Positions 16,803 through 27,799 of a stretch of DNA of 32,417 nt are shown in pieces (position 1 is the first letter of the stretch; every line of letters begins with the position of its first letter). Under the pieces are notes generated by a model. It ran no database searches and was not told the DNA's origin. It saw only the letters and a program-made list of their open reading frames with translations. The stretch is from Clostridiaceae bacterium (lineage in GTDB: Bacteria; Bacillota; Clostridia; Acetivibrionales; Acetivibrionaceae), in contig JAAYPF010000053.1 in the NCBI GenBank assembly GCA_012519925.1, positions 1-32,417 on the forward strand, written 5' to 3'. A program made the translations under genes and the position numbers.

Positions 16803-17674
16803 TTATTTATATGGTTCTAATGGATATCCATCCCTATATTTCCCCCTTGTTTCCACTCCTCCTATCCCCTTAAACCCAGTAATTGTAGTGCTTACAACCT
16901 CCTCAGGTGAAATTATTCTATCTATCCCAGTAAACGCAACTTTTTTACATACATAAACTGGATCCAAAGCATGAATTAGAACCCTATAGGGCGCACTTGC
17001 AAAATTAGCTCCTGCCTCAATAATTTTATGGTACATTGATTGACAAGCACCCGCAAAAATTACAAGTCCATCAAAATTACTATCGTATCTTCTTGCCTCT
17101 TTAACTGCATCAATAAAATATTTTGAGTTCCTGTAATTGTCTATCCTACTATAGCCATTTTCATCCTTTATTACACCGTCATGACCAGTTAAAACAAGAA
17201 TGTCCGGTTTATGTTTCATTAATAATTCATACACCTTTAACGGCTGGTCTTTTTCTTTCACATGTACTCCTACAGCCTCTATACCAAGGTTTCTATACTT
17301 CTCAAGACATGTTTTAAGATAATCATTATCTCCATCAATATGAAGTACCTTACCAGGTCTTTGAAACTTTAGGTCCTTATTTATGCTCTGGTCACGATAG
17401 AATTTTTTTTTTGCACATTCCTATATCCCATAGGTTGTAAACTCCTCATTTTCACATTAATTTTATTGTTTACCTTTTCACTGTATGCCCTTACATTAGA
17501 TTCAGGCTGTAAAACAAGATCCGATTCAGGTGCATCGGCCTCTAGTCTGTAGCAAATCCCTCTTAAAACGACTATTTCATTTCCACCCTCTTTTTTTATA
17601 TCTACAACTTTAAAAAGAATATCCGAGTTATAGGATTTTCTGCCCACAACATCTCCAATTTTTAATTTACTCAA
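16803..17674 (-). pseudogene. yabG: yabG sporulation protease, frameshifted in a poly-A run
   Basis: YabG is a sporulation-specific cysteine peptidase that processes coat proteins. The first ~87 codons (M-S-K-L-K-I-G-D-V-V-G-R-K-S-Y) read from a TTG at 17674 with GGAG eight bases upstream. At a run of ten A (reverse strand of 17403-17412) the frame closes after 'SIVTRA'. In the next frame the protein continues without interruption: V-Q-K-K-K-F-Y-R-D-Q, P-G-K-V-L-H-I-D-G-D, D-I-L-V-L-T-G-H-D-G, F-A-G-A-C-Q-S, H-A-L-D-P-V-Y. With one extra A it would be 290 aa, the same length as Bacillus YabG as I recall it. It may be a true mutation, a homopolymer sequencing error, or a site rescued by transcriptional slippage. 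CATATTAT (17717-17710) resembles a sporulation sigma -10. Confidence 0.85.
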
Positions 17675-17834
17675 AACTCTCACTCCATAAAATTCCTATC
17701 CTAATATACATAATATGCAGTTTTTTATTTATGGTGATTTTTTGAAAGGGGAATGACCCTTACTGCCACTGTATAGAACTTAATAGCTTTCTATGCGGTA
17801 TGCCTTCAAAATAAATAATAATAATATGTGGCTA

Positions 17835-19765: not shown

Positions 19766-20752
19766 CTAATACAAAGAATTATAATTATCAAGGAATTTTT
19801 TATGGTATTCAATCTCATCTATGACTTCTAATAACTTTTTCTCAAAAGTCTTATCTCTCCAACATCTTCGGCTATTGTAATACTTATTTACAACTCTCCA
19901 AAACTTTTGAGGAAATTGAAGCATGATTTTCATAACAATAAATTCTTCTTCCGATATAGATTCCACTGACTTATATGCATCAATTATAACTTTTGCTTCA
20001 TTTATATCCCAGTAACATTTTCTCATTTTGCGCCTCAACAGGTTTGCTATATCATAAACCTTCAATTCAAAACTACATAAACTGAAGTTGATAATTGATG
20101 TTTCATTATCATCTATAATTATATTACTGTGTGTATAATCATGGTGGCAAAACAGCCTCTCTTTTCGCGTTTTTTCAACTAATTCTTTATATTTTGAATC
20201 TGTAATTAGTTTAATGGCCTCTTCACCTAAACTATAAAAGTAATCAATATACTGTAATATTAAATAATCAAGACTTCCTTTTTCTTTACGTGCTGCTTTT
20301 TTTACTCTCTGTATCTCTTCTAATCTTCGAGTAAATTGACCTGGAAGTTTTCCCAAATCATCTTTAATCAAGGCTTTCTCAGGCGGTACATAACCCCTTG
20401 AGGAATTGTGCATTTGTGCAAGAGCTTTTGATGCTTTTATTACATCCTCCCTTTTATCAAGATCACATTCTCTACCTTTAACAGAATCAGTAACCGCATA
20501 ATATATGCCATCAATATTTATATATGGAAGTCCTTCTCTATTACAAATAAATCTATCAATATTGCGAAAATTATTTGTAAATAAATGTTCTTTAGCCCCA
20601 TGAACAAACCATATTCTTCCTGGAGAAAAGTTTAATTTTCTTAAAACTTTTTTACCTGCCGAACTATCAACTATAAAAAAATCCTTAAAAGGAATAATAT
20701 TTGTTACTGTAAAATCATACTCTTGCGACATCTCATTGCGTAAATCACTCAT
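19766..20752 (-). CDS. CotS-family spore-coat protein (kinase fold)
   Basis: 328 aa of the CotS/YutH/YsxE group, which has the aminoglycoside-phosphotransferase fold. Seen: the Lys-rich K-K-V-L-R-K near 35; G-R-E-C-D; catalytic-loop F-C-H-H204-D205-Y-T-H-S-N210; then I-I-N222-F-S where active kinases have D-F-D/G; and D-I-A-N-L-L-R-R. Catalytic Asp and Asn are kept, but the metal-binding Asp of the DFG position is Asn. Activity is therefore doubtful. Family members are found in the spore coat. GGAGG lies ten bases before the ATG. It is convergent with fhs. Confidence 0.8.
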   Translation of the reverse strand: MSDLRNEMSQEYDFTVTNIIPFKDFFIVDSSAGKKVLRKLNFSPGRIWFVHGAKEHLFTNNFRNIDRFICNREGLPYINIDGIYYAVTDSVKGRECDLDKREDVIKASKALAQMHNSSRGYVPPEKALIKDDLGKLPGQFTRRLEEIQRVKKAARKEKGSLDYLILQYIDYFYSLGEEAIKLITDSKYKELVEKTRKERLFCHHDYTHSNIIIDDNETSIINFSLCSFELKVYDIANLLRRKMRKCYWDINEAKVIIDAYKSVESISEEEFIVMKIMLQFPQKFWRVVNKYYNSRRCWRDKTFEKKLLEVIDEIEYHKKFLDNYNSLY

Positions 20753-20943
20753 CGTAATTTGACCTCCACTTTATTGGTACAGCCCATTAATCTAAATATA
20801 TGCAATTAAAACGAATGCTAGAATTTGTTTCGCAGCAAAAACTTGTTCTTTTGTTTTGAAGCTTTTTTAGCACCCTCTTTTAGGCTCTAATAATTAATAA
20901 TGCATGGGTTATTTCATAATCGTACTAACGAAAAATAGATTCA

Positions 20944-20968
20944 AAATAAAAAAACCTTATTAAGGTTT
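20944..20968 (-). terminator. Terminator after the 88-aa ORF
   Basis: On the reverse strand AAACCTT and AAGGTTT (20968-20962 and 20958-20952) form a short stem with a 3-base loop, followed by TTTTTTTATTTT. A related palindrome, CCTT-ATC-AAGG, sits 26 bases upstream (20981-20991). The arrangement supports leftward transcription of the small ORF. Confidence 0.55.
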
Positions 20969-21033
20969 ATGATTTAATATCCTTATCAAGGTCTAAAACT
21001 TTTCTTTCTATATAATGGAGATATAAATAAATT

Positions 21034-21300
21034 TTAATTAAGATTCATTTTTACATCCGAAAATCCTCTGCTTTTAATCAAATAATTTATTGTAAAAAGT
21101 TTTCTTATTCTGTTTAAAAAATCTCTATCTATATACAAATCCGACATTTCTGTATTCAAGAAATTTTTCAAAAAATCAATCTTTATGTCTGAAAGTAACG
21201 AGTATGTACAAATATTAATTTTCCCGTTTAGCACATTTCCTTGACACAACTCAATAAATTTAACTGATTCACTCAGAAGTCTTATCTTTGCATACATCAT
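21034..21300 (-). CDS. Hypothetical 88-aa protein
   Basis: I do not recognise this protein. It is mixed alpha/beta, without signal peptide or membrane segment. It begins M-M-Y-A-K-I-R-L-L and has a Lys/Asp-rich helical middle (D-I-K-I-D-F-L-K-N-F-L). AAGGGTGA lies 13 bases before the first ATG, a little far for a ribosome site. A good leftward terminator follows its stop after about 60 bp, which favours a real gene. It stands alone between the cotS-like gene and the XRE/receptor/peptide group. Confidence 0.45.
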   Translation of the reverse strand: MMYAKIRLLSESVKFIELCQGNVLNGKINICTYSLLSDIKIDFLKNFLNTEMSDLYIDRDFLNRIRKLFTINYLIKSRGFSDVKMNLN

Positions 21301-21778
21301 TTCTTAATAATCACCCTTCCATAAATATTTCAATTAAAATTTTCTACCTTTGAAATAGGATTGACAGAATAAATATTCTTCGATCTCGGAGAAATACTTC
21401 CATGCAAGAAATATAAAACGAACAAAAATTCCTTAACCTCAAGAAAATTCCCTTGTCTTTTTATAGTCCTAATAGAAATACTTTACTTACACAGTTTAAC
21501 TCATGCTTACATATATGTCAACATATAACATTAATTTATGCTAACAAACTACTAAATATCTATATTTAGAACTAATATTTCAAGGTAATAAAAAAACTGT
21601 CAAATGGAGTTTTTTAAAAAAAGTGCTGATATTTGTTTGTAATATAGCTTTTTGCTTATGAATTTTTTAAGGCTTAAATTTTTTATATAATAACAAAATT
21701 TTATTATCTTTACTTTACAATAGATGTAAAAGGTTGTATATTATTGATGAGTAACAAATTGAAAATTTAGGTGATCTT
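21301..21778. other. AT-rich intergenic region upstream of the XRE regulator
   Basis: 478 bp, divergent between the 88-aa ORF and the XRE gene. No ORF is supported. The right end carries the XRE promoter and palindrome. The stretch 21498-21545 is rich in TTACATATATG/CATATAAC-like motifs that could be further binding sites. Confidence 0.5.
21714..21742 (+). promoter_or_regulatory. XRE gene promoter with overlapping operator-like palindrome
   Basis: TTTACA (21714-21719), 17-base spacer, TATATT (21737-21742). The -35 is also the left half of TTTACA-N5-TGTAAA (21714-21730), a 17-bp palindrome in the spacer region. That is the usual place for a self-repressor site. It lies 36 bases before the start codon. 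Confidence 0.6.
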
Positions 21779-22498
21779 GTGAGTGATTTAGGAAAACTCT
21801 TCCGAGAGATAAGATTAAGTAAAAATTGGTCAATAAGACAAGCAGCTAAAAATATGGGTATAAGTTATTCATATTTAAGTATCTTAGAGAAAGGTAAGGA
21901 TCCTCGAACTGGGAAAAACGCTAATCCTAAGCCAGAAATGCTGAAGATAATCTCTAAAGCATACAACTACCCTTATGAGGAACTTATGAAAACTGCAGGC
22001 TATTTAAATGACGACCATAATTTTACGAGAAAATTTGATTTGACCATATTTGCGAATAACTTAAAGTTAATAATGGGTAATATGGAGATAGAAACGCTAT
22101 CAAAGGATATCTACGATAAAACTAGATACCGAATAATACCCGACCAAATTAAAAGTTACTTAAAAGGTGACATACAACCATTTCCTGGCACTATAAATAT
22201 TTTGAGTAAATATGCTCAAGTACGCACAGATTTCTGGTTTAGATATAATACTGAACAAACCCTCATAGATGAAAAGAAAAAATATAAAGAAAATTTATTA
22301 GAATCGGCTTGTGAACATTTTAGTAATGAATATATAAGGTTTTCTGATTTACCTGACAATATTAAGCAATTTACAATAGATAAAGAAAACCACGCATATC
22401 TAAAAGCAGTGATAGAAGCCAAAATGAAAGGTATCAGTCCACATACACTAAAGCTTCTTATACAAACCATTGCAAATGAAATAGAATCGTACAAATGA
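21779..22498 (+). CDS. XRE-family transcriptional regulator
   Basis: 239 aa. The N-terminal Cro/C1 helix-turn-helix (about 4-62) includes L-F-R-E-I-R, S-I-R-Q-A-A-K-N-M-G-I-S-Y-S-Y-L-S-I-L-E-K-G. The segment from about 80 to 150 (N-N-L-K-L-I-M-G, L-S-K-D-I, I-K-S-Y-L-K-G-D, I-L-S-K-Y-A) looks like a second, looser HTH-like fold. The helical C-terminus (about 160-239) may bind a partner or peptide. The start is GTG with AGGTGA five bases upstream. It is the first gene of a group with an AgrC-like receptor and an AgrD-like peptide. A self-regulatory palindrome overlaps its promoter. That it controls the peptide is inference. Confidence 0.88.
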   Translation: MSDLGKLFREIRLSKNWSIRQAAKNMGISYSYLSILEKGKDPRTGKNANPKPEMLKIISKAYNYPYEELMKTAGYLNDDHNFTRKFDLTIFANNLKLIMGNMEIETLSKDIYDKTRYRIIPDQIKSYLKGDIQPFPGTINILSKYAQVRTDFWFRYNTEQTLIDEKKKYKENLLESACEHFSNEYIRFSDLPDNIKQFTIDKENHAYLKAVIEAKMKGISPHTLKLLIQTIANEIESYK

Positions 22499-22596
22499 CT
22501 TTTTTACAAAAATAAATGCCTACTTGATAATAATTTAGGAAACATTTAGTTTATGTGTTTATTACGTATAATAACCAATATAAGGGCGTGTTAGCT

Positions 22597-23436
22597 ATGT
22601 GTAACTCATTTTTAAGTTTATTATTAATTAGTATTCCTGAGTCGTTTTTAGCCGGAATACTGAGCATACTTACAATCGGAAAGTTTTCCTATTTGAAAGA
22701 AGACAAAAAGAATATAATAAGGCTTTTTATTTACTCTATAATCTCTGCAGTATTATCTTTTTATTTTCATAATAGAGTATCCACTGAAGAAAGCTTTTTA
22801 GTATATGTGTTAATTACACCTTTGCTCTTTATATTTATATTAAAACTTAATCTATCCGAATCAATCATAGCTTCAATATTCGGACTTACAATACAGGTTG
22901 CAACAGAAGTAATATGGCTTTCACTTGCCCAACCTTTCATATCTAATAGTATTGATATTATTTACTCAAATATAGGCCTACTATTTCTTCTTTCTTTACC
23001 AACTCGTTTGCTTCAGTTAGCTCTAGTATTTATTTCCTACAAATATAATATTAGAATAATTGATATAGAAAATAAGGATACAAAAAAAAGAGAATATTAT
23101 ATAAAACTTATAGTATATGCTTTATCCATTGGAACATTGGTATTTTTAGCTTTTCTATTGACAAAAACACTGGTTTTTGAAAAAACAAATGACTTTTTAT
23201 CTATAGATGGCTTTTTAATTAGGATAAACATATATTTAACTCTTTTTGTAACTGTAATCCTTACTTTAGCCGTAAAAAATACAAGTGATTATTTTAAAAA
23301 TAAAAGTAGATTAAATAATAATGAATTTTTGCAAAACTTAGAGTATATATCTGATCTTATGAAAGAAGAAAATATGACCGAGGCAAAGGATGCTATAGAA
23401 AGCCTTAAAAAGTATTTGCAAAACAATGAAGTGTAA
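22597..23436 (+). CDS. AgrC-like polytopic membrane receptor lacking the kinase domain
   Basis: From the ATG at 22597 (AAGGG ten bases upstream) the protein is 279 aa; an in-frame GTG at 22555 would add 14. Six to seven hydrophobic segments fill about residues 5-235, the layout of the AgrC sensor domain. The last ~40 residues resemble the Spo0B-type dimerisation/phosphotransfer helix of AgrC kinases. However, the phospho-acceptor H-D is N242-E, followed by F-L-Q-N-L-E-Y-I-S-D-L. No ATP-binding domain follows. It lacks the AgrB His and Cys signature, so it is not the processing peptidase. It lies 98 bp after the XRE gene and upstream of an AgrD-like peptide. A receptor or signal-titrating role is inferred. 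Confidence 0.65.
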   Translation: MCNSFLSLLLISIPESFLAGILSILTIGKFSYLKEDKKNIIRLFIYSIISAVLSFYFHNRVSTEESFLVYVLITPLLFIFILKLNLSESIIASIFGLTIQVATEVIWLSLAQPFISNSIDIIYSNIGLLFLLSLPTRLLQLALVFISYKYNIRIIDIENKDTKKREYYIKLIVYALSIGTLVFLAFLLTKTLVFEKTNDFLSIDGFLIRINIYLTLFVTVILTLAVKNTSDYFKNKSRLNNNEFLQNLEYISDLMKEENMTEAKDAIESLKKYLQNNEV

Positions 23437-23742
23437 GTAATGTGTTTTATTATTTAAATAAAATAGACAGAAGCAAAACCTGCAATTGGACTAGTAGATT
23501 GTGTTAAGTCAAACAGCAGAGTTATGTCTTCTCAAAAGAATCTTACGCTATGATACACCCAATACAAAAATTTGCTTAATAGTTTTTTTTAAGAAAAATT
23601 GTATTAATATATATCTACATTAATATAGTAATATAAATAGGCATCTGCAAAAAGCCATGATGATTTGGGCTGTAAATAAATGTTAGAACTGTAAAGTGGT
23701 CATTCTTTTTCATCGTATTTAATTTCACGAAGGTCAGGAGTG

Positions 23743-23809
23743 GAGTTTCTTGGAGTATAGGAATTTTTTAAAAAACTATTTTTGTAAATCCCTATACTTC
23801 AAGAAATTC
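23743..23809. repeat. 19-bp inverted repeat/hairpin upstream of the peptide gene
   Basis: GAGTTTCTTGGAGTATAGG (23743-23761) is complementary, allowing two G:U pairs, to CCTATACTTCAAGAAATTC (23791-23809), around a 29-base loop. There is no adjacent T run or stop codon, so it is not a simple terminator. Confidence 0.65.
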
Positions 23810-23975
23810 GGGTTTGTCATTTTGATAGACGTCTTTAGATTCTTCATAAATGTCTAAAAGTGAAATTTGATTAAAAAGTTTTATCACTTGTTTCACTTCT
23901 TTTCTGTGGAAATATTGGGTTAATAACTATATTGTACACTTTTTTGAGGGAGAAATAATAGTAATATACTGATAC

Positions 23976-23996
23976 AGCCCTTTGACTTCAAGGGCT
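23976..23996 (+). promoter_or_regulatory. Short hairpin in the leader of the AgrD-like gene
   Basis: AGCCCTT and AAGGGCT form a perfect 7-bp stem with a 7-base loop, 55 bases before the start codon. It could be an attenuator or mRNA-stability hairpin. Confidence 0.45.
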
Positions 23997-24050
23997 ACAG
24001 CATTTTACAAATAACAAAAGTAATACAAAAATTAGGGGGGTACTATTGAA

Positions 24051-24191
24051 ATGAAAAAAACACTTGAGGTAATTGCGGTTATTTTAACTACACTTGCTGT
24101 TGTTTCTGTGAGTACAGCATCTTGGTTTTTCTTCTACCAGCCAAATGCTCCAAAAACAATTCAACACTATGAAATAAACAAGTTTTCCTAG
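24051..24191 (+). CDS. AgrD-like cyclic autoinducer pre-peptide with Ser at the ring position
   Basis: 46 aa, behind AGGGGGG ten bases upstream. It has the AgrD three-part layout: a Lys-started hydrophobic leader helix (about 1-23), a short core S24-W-F-F-F28, then a tail opening Y29-Q-P-N-A-P34-K. Clostridial AgrD peptides have C-x4 followed by (H/Y)-Q-P-x-x-P. Here the ring residue is Ser, which would give a lactone rather than a thiolactone, as known for the Staphylococcus intermedius group. The predicted signal is a five-residue ring S-W-F-F-F with uncertain N-terminal tail. AgrB, needed for maturation, is not in this window. A receptor-like protein and an XRE regulator lie upstream. Moderately sure of the family; the mature product is inferred. 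Confidence 0.7.
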   Translation: MKKTLEVIAVILTTLAVVSVSTASWFFFYQPNAPKTIQHYEINKFS

Positions 24192-24204
24192 AAAACAAAC
24201 TAAA

Positions 24205-24236
24205 ATATGCCACACTATGTACATAGTGTGGCATAT
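24205..24236. terminator. Perfect 32-bp palindrome terminator between the peptide gene and nifJ
   Basis: ATATGCCACACTATGT (24205-24220) is followed directly by its exact inverse (24221-24236). On the reverse strand TTTTAGTTTGTTTTC follows, a good nifJ terminator. On the forward strand the T run is weaker but it could also stop the peptide transcript. Confidence 0.85.
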
Positions 24237-24253
24237 CTTGGTTTGTTATAATA

Positions 24254-27200
24254 TTATTTGTAAAGATCTACTAGTTTTAATAAATGTTCATAACGCTCTA
24301 TAGCAGCCTTTTCAGATTCCTTAAAGAGCTTTTCCGCACGCTCTGGGAATGTACGAGTCAAACGTGTAAAACGTGTCTCATTATTCAAAAACTCCTGATA
24401 AGTTCCATCACCTGGCTTAGATGTCAAGGTAAATGGATTCTTACCTTCAGCTTTAAGAGCAGGATTGAAGGAGAAAAGATTCCAGTAACCGGAAGCAACA
24501 GCCTTCTTCATTTCGTCCTGACAGTGATTCATTCCACCTTTAACTCCATGAAGTTCACAAGGAGCATAAGCAATAATCAAGGATGGTCCATTGTAAGCTT
24601 CTGCTTCTGCTATTACCTTAATAGCCTGAGCAGGACTAGCACCAAGAGCAATCTGTGCTACATAAACATATCCATAACTCATAGCAATTTCAGCAAGATT
24701 CTTTTTACCAATTTCTTTTCCTGAAGCAGCAAACTGACAAACCTCTCCTATTGTAGAAGCTTTAGATGCCTGACCACCTGTATTTGAATACATCTCTGTG
24801 TCAAATACCATTATATTTACATTTTCACCTGTTGCAATTACATGGTCAAGACCACCAAAGCCTATATCATATGCCCAGCCGTCACCACCAAAAATCCAAA
24901 CAGATTTCTTAGCAAGATATTTTTTCTTTTCAAGAACTTCTTTAGACGCTTCACAACCTGCCTTAGCTGCCTTTTCAAGCTCAACAACTAAAGCATCCGT
25001 TGCTGGTGTATTTTCTTTTGTACTATCCTTAGTTTCCATAAACTTAGCTATAGCAACCTTTAGTTCTGCAGAAGCTTTGTCTGAAGCAGCTATTTTTTCA
25101 AGCTTATCAATTGCCTGGTCACGAATAACTTTCTGTCCAAGATACATACCAAATCCGTGCTCTGCATTATCTTCAAACAAAGAGTTAGCCCAAGCAGGAC
25201 CCCTTTGTGAATCCTTATTTACTGTATATGGACTAGTCGCAGCAGGACCTCCCCATATGGAAGAACAACCAGTAGCATTTGATATATACATTTGCTCACC
25301 AAACAGTTGAGTAACTAAGCGAGCATAAGATGTTTCAGCACATCCTGCACAACTCCCTGAAAACTCAAGAAGAGGCTGATTAAACTGAGATCCTTTTGCA
25401 GTAGTCTCAGCTGGCACTCCAGGCTTCTTACCTACATTTGCAACGAGATAATCAAATACAGGCTGTTCATGAAGTTGTGATTCTTGAGGCACCATCCTGA
25501 TAGCATCCTTTGGACATACTGTGATACATTCTCCACAACCCATACAATCCATAGGAGTTACACTCATTGTGAATTTATACTCACTAGCCTTTGGCTTTGT
25601 ATCAGCAAGTTTGATATTTGAAGGAGCCGCTTTAATTTCCTCTTCGCTCAACATAAATGGACGAATTGTAGCATGTGAACATACAAATGCACAGCTGTTA
25701 CACTGAATACATTTCTCTGGGTACCATTCAGGAACAGTTACCGCAGTAGCACGCTTTTCATAAGCAGAAGCACCATGCTCAAATTCTCCGTCCGCAATAT
25801 CTTTAAATGCAGATACAGGAAGACTATCACCATCCATTAATGAAATTGGAATCATAAGCTCTTTAACCATTTTAACCGTCTCAGAACGACCAACAAGTTC
25901 ATAAGCTTTTGGATCTGCTTCAGGGTTTGACCATGAAGCTGGAACTTCTACTTTATGAAGTGCAGTTACACCGGCGTCAATTGCTTTGTAGTTCATTTCA
26001 ACAATTGCATCACCTTTCTTACCATAGGACTTCTTTGCAGCATCTTTCATGTATTTTATAGCATCATCAATCGGCATTACATTTGCTAATTTAAAGAAAG
26101 CTGCTTGAAGAATTGTATTGGTACGTTTACCCATTCCAATTTCAATCGCCTTATCAATAGCGTTTATTGTATATAGCTGAATATTGTTATCTGCAATATA
26201 TTTTTTTGCAGCAGCATTCAATTTAGTGGACAACTCATCATCAGACCATTGGCAGTTAATCATGAAAATTCCGCCTGGCTTAACATCCTGTACCATTTTG
26301 AAGCCTTTAAGAACATATGACGGATTATGACATGCAACAAAATCAGCTTGATTTATATAATAAGGACTTTTAATTGGCTTATCTCCAAACCTTAAGTGTG
26401 AAATAGTTACACCACCGGTTTTCTTGGAATCATATTGGAAATATGCCTGAATATATTTATCTGTATGATCACCAATTATCTTTGTAGAATTCTTGTTAGC
26501 TCCTACAGTACCATCTCCACCGAGACCCCAGAACTTACACTCTACTGTACCTGCCGCAGCAGTAATAGGAGCAGGCTTAACTTCTGGCAAACTTAAGTTG
26601 GTAACATCATCTACAATACCTATTGTAAAACGTGGCTTAGGATCATCTTTCTTAAGTTCTGTATAAACAGCAAATACTGATGATGGAGGAGTGTCTTTAG
26701 AACCAAGCCCATAACGACCGTTTGTTACCACTATATCATTAAGTCCTGCTTCACGTAATGTTGATACAACATCAAGGTACAATGGTTCAGCTAATGCACC
26801 AGGTTCTTTCGTACGATCAAGTACTGCAATTTTCTTTACTGTTTTAGGAAGAACCTTAAGCAAACTGCTTGAAACCCAAGGACGATATAAACGAACCTTG
26901 ATAAGTCCAACTTTCTCACCAGCAGCATTTAAATAATCTACAACTTCCTCTGTTACATCACAGAATGATCCCATAGCAACAATAACACGGTCAGCATCTG
27001 GAGCACCATAATAATTAAACAGATCATAATTTGTGCCAAGTTTTTCATTTACTTTTTTCATATATTTCTCAACAATAGCAGGTAATTCATCATACATTGT
27101 ATTACATGCCTCACGATGTTGGAAGAATACATCTCCGTTTTCATGGGAACCACGCATTTTTGGATTCTCAGGATTTAACGCTTTTTCACGGAAAGCTTTT

Positions 27201-27799
27201 ACTGCATCCATATTGCACATTTCTTTTAGATCTGAATAATCCCATACGTCAATTTTTTGCATTTCATGGGATGTACGGAAACCATCAAAAAAACTAATAA
27301 AAGGAATTCTTCCTTCAATTGTAGCAAGGTGTGCAACTGCACTTAAGTCCATAACTTCCTGAGGATTTGATTCAGCTAACATAGCAAAACCTGTCTGACG
27401 ACAAGAATATACGTCACTGTGATCACCAAAGATATTCAAAGCATGTGTAGCTATAGTACGTGCTGACACATGAAATACACTAGGAAGCAATTCACCAGCA
27501 ATTTTATACATATTAGGAATCATAAGAAGAAGTCCCTGTGAAGCCGTAAATGTTGAAGTTAAAGCACCAGCAGCAAGAGAACCGTGAACAGTTCCTGCAG
27601 CTCCAGCTTCAGATTGAAGCTCAACAACTTTAACTTGGTTACCAAAAATATTTTCTCTACCTGCAGCGGACCATTGGTCAACAAAATCGGCCATTGGGCT
27701 TGAAGGTGTAATTGGATAAATGGCAGCAACATCAGTAAAAGCATACGCTACATGAGCAGCAGCTGTATTGCCGTCCATTGCTTGTTTAGTTCTTGACAT
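24254..27799 (-). CDS. nifJ: Pyruvate:ferredoxin (flavodoxin) oxidoreductase, single-chain
   Basis: This enzyme oxidises pyruvate and CoA to acetyl-CoA and CO2 and reduces ferredoxin, the central step of clostridial fermentation. The full-length single chain (1181 aa) contains fused alpha, gamma, delta and beta parts. Seen: I-Y-P-I-T-P-S-S near 28; W-G-L-G-G-D-G-T-V-G-A-N-K in the gamma part; two 4Fe-4S motifs (C697, C700, C703, C707 and C752, C755, C758, C762); proximal cluster cysteines C817, C820 and C845; TPP motif G-G-D-G-W-A-Y-D near 971 with Y-S-N-T-G-G-Q. AGGGGG lies nine bases before the ATG. A tandem TTGTATACA site lies about 65-90 bp upstream and a palindrome terminator lies downstream. 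Confidence 0.98.
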   Translation of the reverse strand: MSRTKQAMDGNTAAAHVAYAFTDVAAIYPITPSSPMADFVDQWSAAGRENIFGNQVKVVELQSEAGAAGTVHGSLAAGALTSTFTASQGLLLMIPNMYKIAGELLPSVFHVSARTIATHALNIFGDHSDVYSCRQTGFAMLAESNPQEVMDLSAVAHLATIEGRIPFISFFDGFRTSHEMQKIDVWDYSDLKEMCNMDAVKAFREKALNPENPKMRGSHENGDVFFQHREACNTMYDELPAIVEKYMKKVNEKLGTNYDLFNYYGAPDADRVIVAMGSFCDVTEEVVDYLNAAGEKVGLIKVRLYRPWVSSSLLKVLPKTVKKIAVLDRTKEPGALAEPLYLDVVSTLREAGLNDIVVTNGRYGLGSKDTPPSSVFAVYTELKKDDPKPRFTIGIVDDVTNLSLPEVKPAPITAAAGTVECKFWGLGGDGTVGANKNSTKIIGDHTDKYIQAYFQYDSKKTGGVTISHLRFGDKPIKSPYYINQADFVACHNPSYVLKGFKMVQDVKPGGIFMINCQWSDDELSTKLNAAAKKYIADNNIQLYTINAIDKAIEIGMGKRTNTILQAAFFKLANVMPIDDAIKYMKDAAKKSYGKKGDAIVEMNYKAIDAGVTALHKVEVPASWSNPEADPKAYELVGRSETVKMVKELMIPISLMDGDSLPVSAFKDIADGEFEHGASAYEKRATAVTVPEWYPEKCIQCNSCAFVCSHATIRPFMLSEEEIKAAPSNIKLADTKPKASEYKFTMSVTPMDCMGCGECITVCPKDAIRMVPQESQLHEQPVFDYLVANVGKKPGVPAETTAKGSQFNQPLLEFSGSCAGCAETSYARLVTQLFGEQMYISNATGCSSIWGGPAATSPYTVNKDSQRGPAWANSLFEDNAEHGFGMYLGQKVIRDQAIDKLEKIAASDKASAELKVAIAKFMETKDSTKENTPATDALVVELEKAAKAGCEASKEVLEKKKYLAKKSVWIFGGDGWAYDIGFGGLDHVIATGENVNIMVFDTEMYSNTGGQASKASTIGEVCQFAASGKEIGKKNLAEIAMSYGYVYVAQIALGASPAQAIKVIAEAEAYNGPSLIIAYAPCELHGVKGGMNHCQDEMKKAVASGYWNLFSFNPALKAEGKNPFTLTSKPGDGTYQEFLNNETRFTRLTRTFPERAEKLFKESEKAAIERYEHLLKLVDLYK

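Follow-up and report, generated by a model that had tools for sequence, protein, structure and literature searches.

A kinase-less AgrC-like receptor with an AgrD peptide and an XRE regulator: a possible agr variant in Acetivibrionaceae and related Clostridia

The agrBDCA systems of staphylococci and clostridia are the closest described counterparts of a three-gene locus in a 32,417-nucleotide (nt) stretch of DNA from a Clostridiaceae bacterium of the family Acetivibrionaceae (assembly GCA_012519925.1, contig JAAYPF010000053.1), the whole of which is referred to as the window. The locus encodes an XRE-family regulator (21779-22498), a polytopic AgrC-like receptor (22597-23436) and an AgrD pre-peptide (24051-24191). 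An earlier interpretation of this DNA, the original prediction, had described three such rightward genes, and the corresponding open reading frames (ORFs) are indeed present on the plus strand. The locus shares with agrBDCA an AgrD with a five-residue Ser/Cys ring and a QP..PK tail, a receptor homologous to AgrC, and the occurrence of AgrB, which is found over the model cut-off in 11 of the 14 genomes of the family. It differs in that the receptor contains neither the His nor the ATPase domain of the kinase, that no AgrA is adjacent, that AgrB is unlinked and that an XRE gene is present instead. The agrD2-agrC2 genes of Clostridium autoethanogenum likewise combine a peptide with a receptor in the absence of agrB, and an AgrB located elsewhere is assumed to serve them, but AgrC2 is described as a putative histidine kinase (PMC8748961). 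In Clostridium thermocellum, Clo1313_2818 gives rise to a secreted cyclic lactone formed from S25 to F29, with cleavage at A24|S25 and with Y30 and P35 following, and growth is slowed by the ring peptide but not by its linear form (Verbeke et al. 2017, PMC5322536); the available text of that paper names no AgrB, AgrC or AgrA candidate for the lactone. Here it is argued, with a probability of a little over one half, that the locus represents an agr variant in which AgrB would act in trans, the receptor is kinase-less and the XRE protein would provide the output. A search of the open-access literature brought up no description of AgrC receptors that lack a kinase and are paired with AgrD and XRE, most subscription papers and preprints lying outside the scope of that search.

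The receptor is a protein of 279 residues, the gene of which may alternatively start with a GTG codon at 22555. Its last helix leads into a His-less hairpin resembling that of Spo0B (about residues 240-274), and no ATPase domain is present. In a profile-profile comparison 22 receptors align with eight AgrC kinases over 261 columns, with a probability of 98.9 and an E-value of 3.9e-17; the alignment spans the membrane part together with the first hairpin and ends at the start of the ATPase part. The receptor tail NNEFLQNLEYISDLMKEENMTEAKDAIESLKK aligns to the His-box hairpin of the AgrC kinases, with an asparagine at the His position. The invariant histidine of the kinases is absent from all 26 receptors of the family, in which the position is occupied by Asn, Arg or Ile; the residue pair preceding the conserved glutamate is NN or GR in 12 receptors each, and TN and GI in one each. 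No kinase family appears among the Pfam matches of the 22 scanned receptors, and the window receptor itself matches no Pfam family at E≤1. As a positive control, eight longer proteins (seven profile matches from the order, and L099) all contain HATPase_c_5, which identifies them as AgrC-type kinases, and seven of them contain SPOB_a. By sequence comparison the polytopic protein is homologous to the AgrC sensor and has lost the kinase part, and the His-less, Spo0B-like end noted in the original prediction is thereby confirmed. Having lost both the histidine and the ATPase domain, the receptor is unable to signal as a histidine kinase alone, and it may act without phosphorylation. The AlphaFold2 (AF2) model of the receptor (predicted local distance difference test, pLDDT, 74; predicted template modelling score, pTM, 0.61) shows a helical bundle, the last long helix of which runs into a short hairpin. 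Foldseek returned nothing below 1e-3 for this fold, the sequences in the PDB contained no match to the receptor profile, and VIA-align gave GPCR and ABC rows with Z of 8 or less, which are read as unspecific for helical bundles. No AgrC row appeared, but these searches of solved structures are uninformative and do not speak against the AgrC assignment. A small helical hairpin is kept in most receptor tails. In a survey of the tail lengths of 36 receptors (L134, L138 and L147 being left out), six were found with only 6-21 residues past the last hydrophobic segment (L148, L150, L154, L158, L191 and L192).

A profile made from six receptors matches in all 14 genomes of the family set, in which the present genome is G000. 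After subtraction of one 63-residue fragment (G001) from the 27 matches, 26 receptors are counted, including a G001 receptor without its N-terminus. All 26 have an AgrD gene downstream on the same strand. Thirteen of them constitute locus 1, with an XRE gene upstream in every case, and the other 13 constitute locus 2, at which no such XRE was found in the 1.5 kb fetched. A scan for related loci with the single receptor found no relative; a scan of named genomes with a receptor alignment yielded 13 named loci (Acetivibrio mesophilus, A. alkalicellulosi, A. straminisolvens, Herbivorax sp. and metagenome-assembled genomes), partly from the same genomes as the family set under their names. AgrD is present at all 13, and XRE lies upstream in all seven locus-1 copies. 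In G001 (L017, L043) the locus-2 receptor, which is the one counted without its N-terminus, is split from a 5' fragment by ORFs resembling insertion elements.

In the order set of 58 genomes the receptor profile matches in 39. Outside the family 42 matches were fetched, seven with frames of 441-463 residues (kinases) and 35 without a kinase part; the latter come from 23 genomes in 11 families, with L138 and L147 perhaps being two ends of one G050 gene. Family included, kinase-less receptors occur in 37 of the 58 genomes, and a wider profile adds two more, G016 and G018 (L184, L192). AgrD is found beside 34 of the 35 kinase-less receptors outside the family, 33 by an automatic distance rule and one, L169, added by hand because its AgrD overlaps by 64 nt and was missed by the rule. 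The remaining receptor, L147, is cut by a contig end, so that neither the missing AgrD nor the missing kinase part is informative. By the same distance rule AgrD lies downstream of none of the seven kinase-bearing relatives. The pairing of receptor and peptide gene in the original prediction is thus kept by the homologues, both inside and outside the family.

A model built from the family XREs only detects an XRE gene within 1.5 kb of 19 of the 35 kinase-less receptors outside the family, compared with none of the seven kinases and no match in ten control loci (144,361 bases). Twelve of the 19 matches reach at least 42 bits, and seven score 13-20 bits. Ten XRE genes are on the receptor strand (collinear) and nine are convergent, beyond AgrD; for three of the convergent loci, L174-L176, the XREs can be aligned with the window XRE over the full length, at 29-35% identity. 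That XRE genes recur in two arrangements speaks for a functional link, and the association of receptor, peptide and XRE protein that had been suggested for this locus is supported by conserved neighbourhoods in the family as well as in the rest of the order. A broader XRE model, partly derived from the XREs of these same loci, matches at 23 of the 35, while a helix-turn-helix (HTH) is then also found in one of the seven kinase loci and one of the ten controls. In the class set (391 genomes, E≤1e-8, at most six candidates per genome scored) 34 genomes have a match; among the 16 class-search loci examined 13 lie outside the order, where L191 has the arrangement receptor, AgrD and convergent XRE and most others differ. 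At L150 three short AgrB-like pieces lie upstream of a kinase-less receptor with AgrD, which suggests a decayed agrB, and at L100 (G008) an AgrB-AgrD pair is accompanied by a convergent XRE gene, with no receptor recognised between them.

The 46-residue ORF of the window scores 41.4 bits with the AgrD model TIGR04223 (cut-off 19), and the profile search therefore places it inside the AgrD family, as had been proposed. In an alignment with 25 other AgrDs of the family, the predicted lactone ring is S-W-F-F-F, followed by YQPNAPK; the ring boundaries are taken, as an analogy, from the C. thermocellum peptide, which was demonstrated by liquid chromatography-tandem mass spectrometry (PMC5322536). 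Two AgrDs of this genome score over the cut-off of the AgrD model. The second (C66:47011-47121) lies 3' of a second kinase-less receptor, which is 22% identical to the window receptor, and has a predicted ring S-W-L-I-F; in the 1.5 kb upstream of this second receptor no XRE is recognised.

The locus-2 AgrD of G013, read as 40 residues, fits A24, S25, F29, Y30 and P35 of the published lactone, whereas the other two AgrDs of G013 do not. The peptide letters of the Clo1313_2818 product were not found in the available text of PMC5322536, and the match is one of residue numbering. From its sequence G013 is read as C. thermocellum, on a basis that includes a group of radical SAM, AgrB and 54-residue AgrD genes; a group of radical SAM, AgrB and AgrD in C. 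thermocellum, consisting of Cthe_1309, 1310 and 3348, is reported in PMC3880215. In G013 a distance of 82 nt separates the end of a kinase-less receptor gene from the locus-2 AgrD ORF downstream of it, and the genome contains two AgrB genes. Since this AgrD fits the published lactone and the receptor adjoins it, the locus-2 receptor is a previously unrecognised candidate receptor for a real peptide. The present analysis agrees with the account of Clo1313_2818 in residue numbering and differs from its available text in naming receptor and AgrB candidates.

AgrB is not matched in the contig of the window at E≤1, nor over the cut-off anywhere in this assembly. Among the 37 genomes that encode kinase-less receptors, 33 have an AgrB over the cut-off; the other four (G000, G005, G006 and G050) are assemblies of about 250-400 contigs. 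In all seven stretches inspected (G001, G002, G003, G004, G007, G009 and G013) agrB is located beside genes that we take to be nadA, nadB and nadC, with one gene between in G013. Its other side is formed directly by a ribosomal RNA (rRNA) operon in G001, G002 and G013, whereas in G003 one ORF intervenes before a 5S gene; no rRNA was found there in G004, and the contig ends in G007 and G009. In L092 (G002), L093 (G001) and L094 (G013) agrB is situated between the 5S end of the rRNA operon and nadA, a position at which draft assemblies are prone to break. In the present genome nadA starts at base 272 of contig C229, 271 nt after the contig start. With an agrB-nadA gap of 296-297 nt, as in G002 and G004, or of 1483 nt, as in G013, agrB would fall off such a contig, and with the 266 nt of G007 the case is borderline; of the two other members of the genus, the closest by receptor and XRE identity is G002, with a gap of 297 nt. 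Against a gap in the assembly speak the spacings of 162-189 nt in G001, G003 and G009, with which the end of agrB would show on the 271 nt, where none is recognised. On balance the favoured reading is that agrB of this genome would lie in an assembly gap upstream of nadA. A true absence of AgrB was considered and set aside as unproven, given that relatives carry agrB beside nadA and that the contig ends at this site. The description of the locus as lacking AgrB is hence correct for the locus itself but does not extend to most genomes of the family, since 11 of the 14 have an agrB, and a check for a distant agrB, as had been suggested, locates the gene beside nadABC in the seven relatives inspected.

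The XRE regulator comprises 239 residues, with a GTG start, and contains an N-terminal HTH_3 domain (E 1.9e-10 in a Pfam scan) followed by further helices including a C-terminal helical pair (AF2 model, pLDDT 78.5, pTM 0.44). Its N-terminal part is related by sequence to SinR (E 6.5e-8) and DdrO, and the model resembles the DdrO, SinR and RghR repressors in this part (Foldseek); it differs from these repressors in its length and its further domains. A SinI-like antirepressor hook at the C-terminus was considered from the SinI pattern but is not claimed, since none of nine C-terminal pieces matched SinI in a Pfam scan. A C-terminal tetratricopeptide repeat (TPR) domain, with which regulators of the RRNPP type bind imported peptide, is not indicated either, as the Pfam scan of the XRE protein contains no TPR family at E≤1, and comparison of the model with PlcR, PrgX and ComR gives TM scores of only 0.20-0.22 of the target. 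Upstream of the gene, a promoter-like site on the plus strand (TTTACA, 17 nt, TATATT; 21714-21742) is overlapped at its -35 element by an exact inverted repeat, TTTACA-N5-TGTAAA (21714-21730), which is a possible XRE operator. A repeat at the same place above the XRE gene is found in only two of the 13 family genomes, this one and G002. With two mismatches allowed, the repeat occurs five times in the window, below the chance mean of 6.8, and the 22 promoter-like matches in the region are not above the 18.1±4.0 expected by chance. The repeat behind the self-operator of the original prediction is exact in this genome, but its restriction to two genomes makes the operator reading weak.

The three genes are flanked on the left by an APH-family gene (19766-20752) and on the right by a convergent 1181-residue ORF (24254-27799), presumably pyruvate:ferredoxin oxidoreductase. 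No adjacent AgrA is found in the ORF list from 20752 to 24254, which besides the three genes contains only ORFs of at most 92 residues, not scanned by profile. A terminator-like palindromic stem of 14 bp, assigned to no strand, is located at 24205-24236, between AgrD and the end of the convergent gene at 24254; the two terminator-like stems counted, compared with 0.8±0.8 in shuffled sequences, are this one stem on its two strands. The receptor and AgrD genes are separated by 614 nt in this genome and by 36-282 nt at the other 25 family loci, and AgrD may therefore have its own promoter here. Within this gap an imperfect 31-nt inverted repeat (23743-23809) is observed, possibly an inserted element. 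Elsewhere in the window two adjacent minus-strand ORFs (16803-17261 and 17381-17683) resemble the two portions of YabG, a sporulation protease, which would suggest a split gene.

These features can be combined into a provisional scheme. AgrD would be made at the window locus, with its leader probably being removed after ...STA, and closure of the Ser-W-F-F-F ring would fall to an AgrB whose gene lies away from the locus, next to nadABC in relatives, and which presumably acts in trans. The lactone would be sensed outside the cell by the polytopic receptor, which appears to descend from the sensor domain of AgrC and has kept the bundle of transmembrane helices along with a short hairpin resembling that of Spo0B. 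Upon the presumed binding of the peptide, the hairpin or the inner loops could hold or release the XRE protein, the most likely output at this locus, by a contact and a direction of effect that we infer, and the XRE protein would then change the transcription of the operon and of other targets. The overall interpretation given in the original prediction is thus partly supported: the AgrD peptide, the His-less AgrC-like receptor and the link with the XRE protein are preserved, the absence of AgrB is narrowed to the locus, and the self-operator is weakened. A wider proposal is advanced tentatively, with somewhat less than even confidence: these Clostridia may harbour a widespread clade of AgrC-derived receptors without phosphorelay, in which peptide binding would be passed straight from the membrane bundle to an XRE repressor, with one AgrB serving several AgrD-receptor channels per genome and some receptors retaining almost no cytoplasmic output part.

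Besides the missing AgrB and the poorly conserved repeat, several observations weigh against the proposed agr variant. No such XRE gene is found at locus 2 (0/13, in about 1.5 kb fetched), so that an XRE is not the neighbour of every such receptor and the receptor of locus 2 must act otherwise or on a distant partner. The matches of 13-20 bits outside the family may reflect little beyond the shared HTH, the six tails of 6-21 residues offer little for an XRE protein to bind, and the family loci are not independent because of their shared ancestry. If the XRE gene were an unrelated neighbour, with receptor and peptide forming the only link, the lack of a match to the family model near 13 of the 26 receptors in the family and 16 of the 35 beyond it would be in agreement, as would the seven weak positives. 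This is nevertheless rather unlikely, in view of the strong matches at 12 of the 35 receptors outside the family, in collinear and convergent order, against none at the kinase loci or in the control bases, and of the full-length alignment of the XREs from three convergent loci. Alternatively, the receptor may titrate the peptide or form mixed dimers with a distant histidine kinase, so that phosphate signalling is kept and the XRE protein only regulates its own operon. Such an arrangement, the main alternative, considered unlikely though not negligible, is consistent with the dimerising hairpin kept in the receptor, with the XRE-free locus 2 and with the kinases encoded in these genomes. Among nine GHKL matches in the present genome the second best (C220:84618, 45.5 bits) is an intact Spo0B-type kinase of 290 residues (L216 1567-2439, contig C220) that has few membrane helices and carries a normal RHDFMNHL box, a further point against the proposed variant, and several genomes of the family encode AgrC-type kinases of about 450 residues (e.g., at C1:1594006 in G013 and, as a 451-residue frame, at C7:489913 in G001). 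The top GHKL match in this genome, however, is a frame of only 158 residues, 123 nt from a contig end (L211/L217, contig C54); moreover, the hairpin is very short or missing in six of 36 receptors, and the recurrence of XRE genes in two gene orders is not in favour of mixed dimers. Relatives carry longer kinases, and in L213 the gene corresponding to the 158-residue frame is in two frames.

The constant proximity of the receptor to AgrD, together with the lack of AgrB in the locus, could also mean that the polytopic protein helps in making or exporting the peptide, as a partner or substitute of AgrB, rather than sensing it. This is improbable given its homology to AgrC sensors and the conservation pattern, in which no column has cysteine in at least eight of the 26 receptors and a single column has histidine, in 11 of 26; furthermore, AgrB is encoded in most of the genomes concerned, and in some cassettes (L152, L163, L164 and L172) AgrB, receptor and AgrD occur together. 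The loss of the kinase half might finally be taken to indicate a decayed agr locus with a truncated AgrC on its way to being lost. Such decay is very hard to reconcile with receptor frames that are open at 271-297 residues in all 26 copies from three genera and have conserved tail residues, and it is given hardly any weight.

For at least 37 of the 58 genomes of the order the analysis points to AgrC-type sensing that has been separated from its kinase, and hence to a possible route by which a cyclic peptide is perceived without the usual phosphate relay. The bacteria concerned degrade cellulose, and C. thermocellum is studied for the conversion of plant biomass to fuel. With a candidate receptor gene and two AgrB genes named for its lactone, the pathway is open to test by a few deletions.

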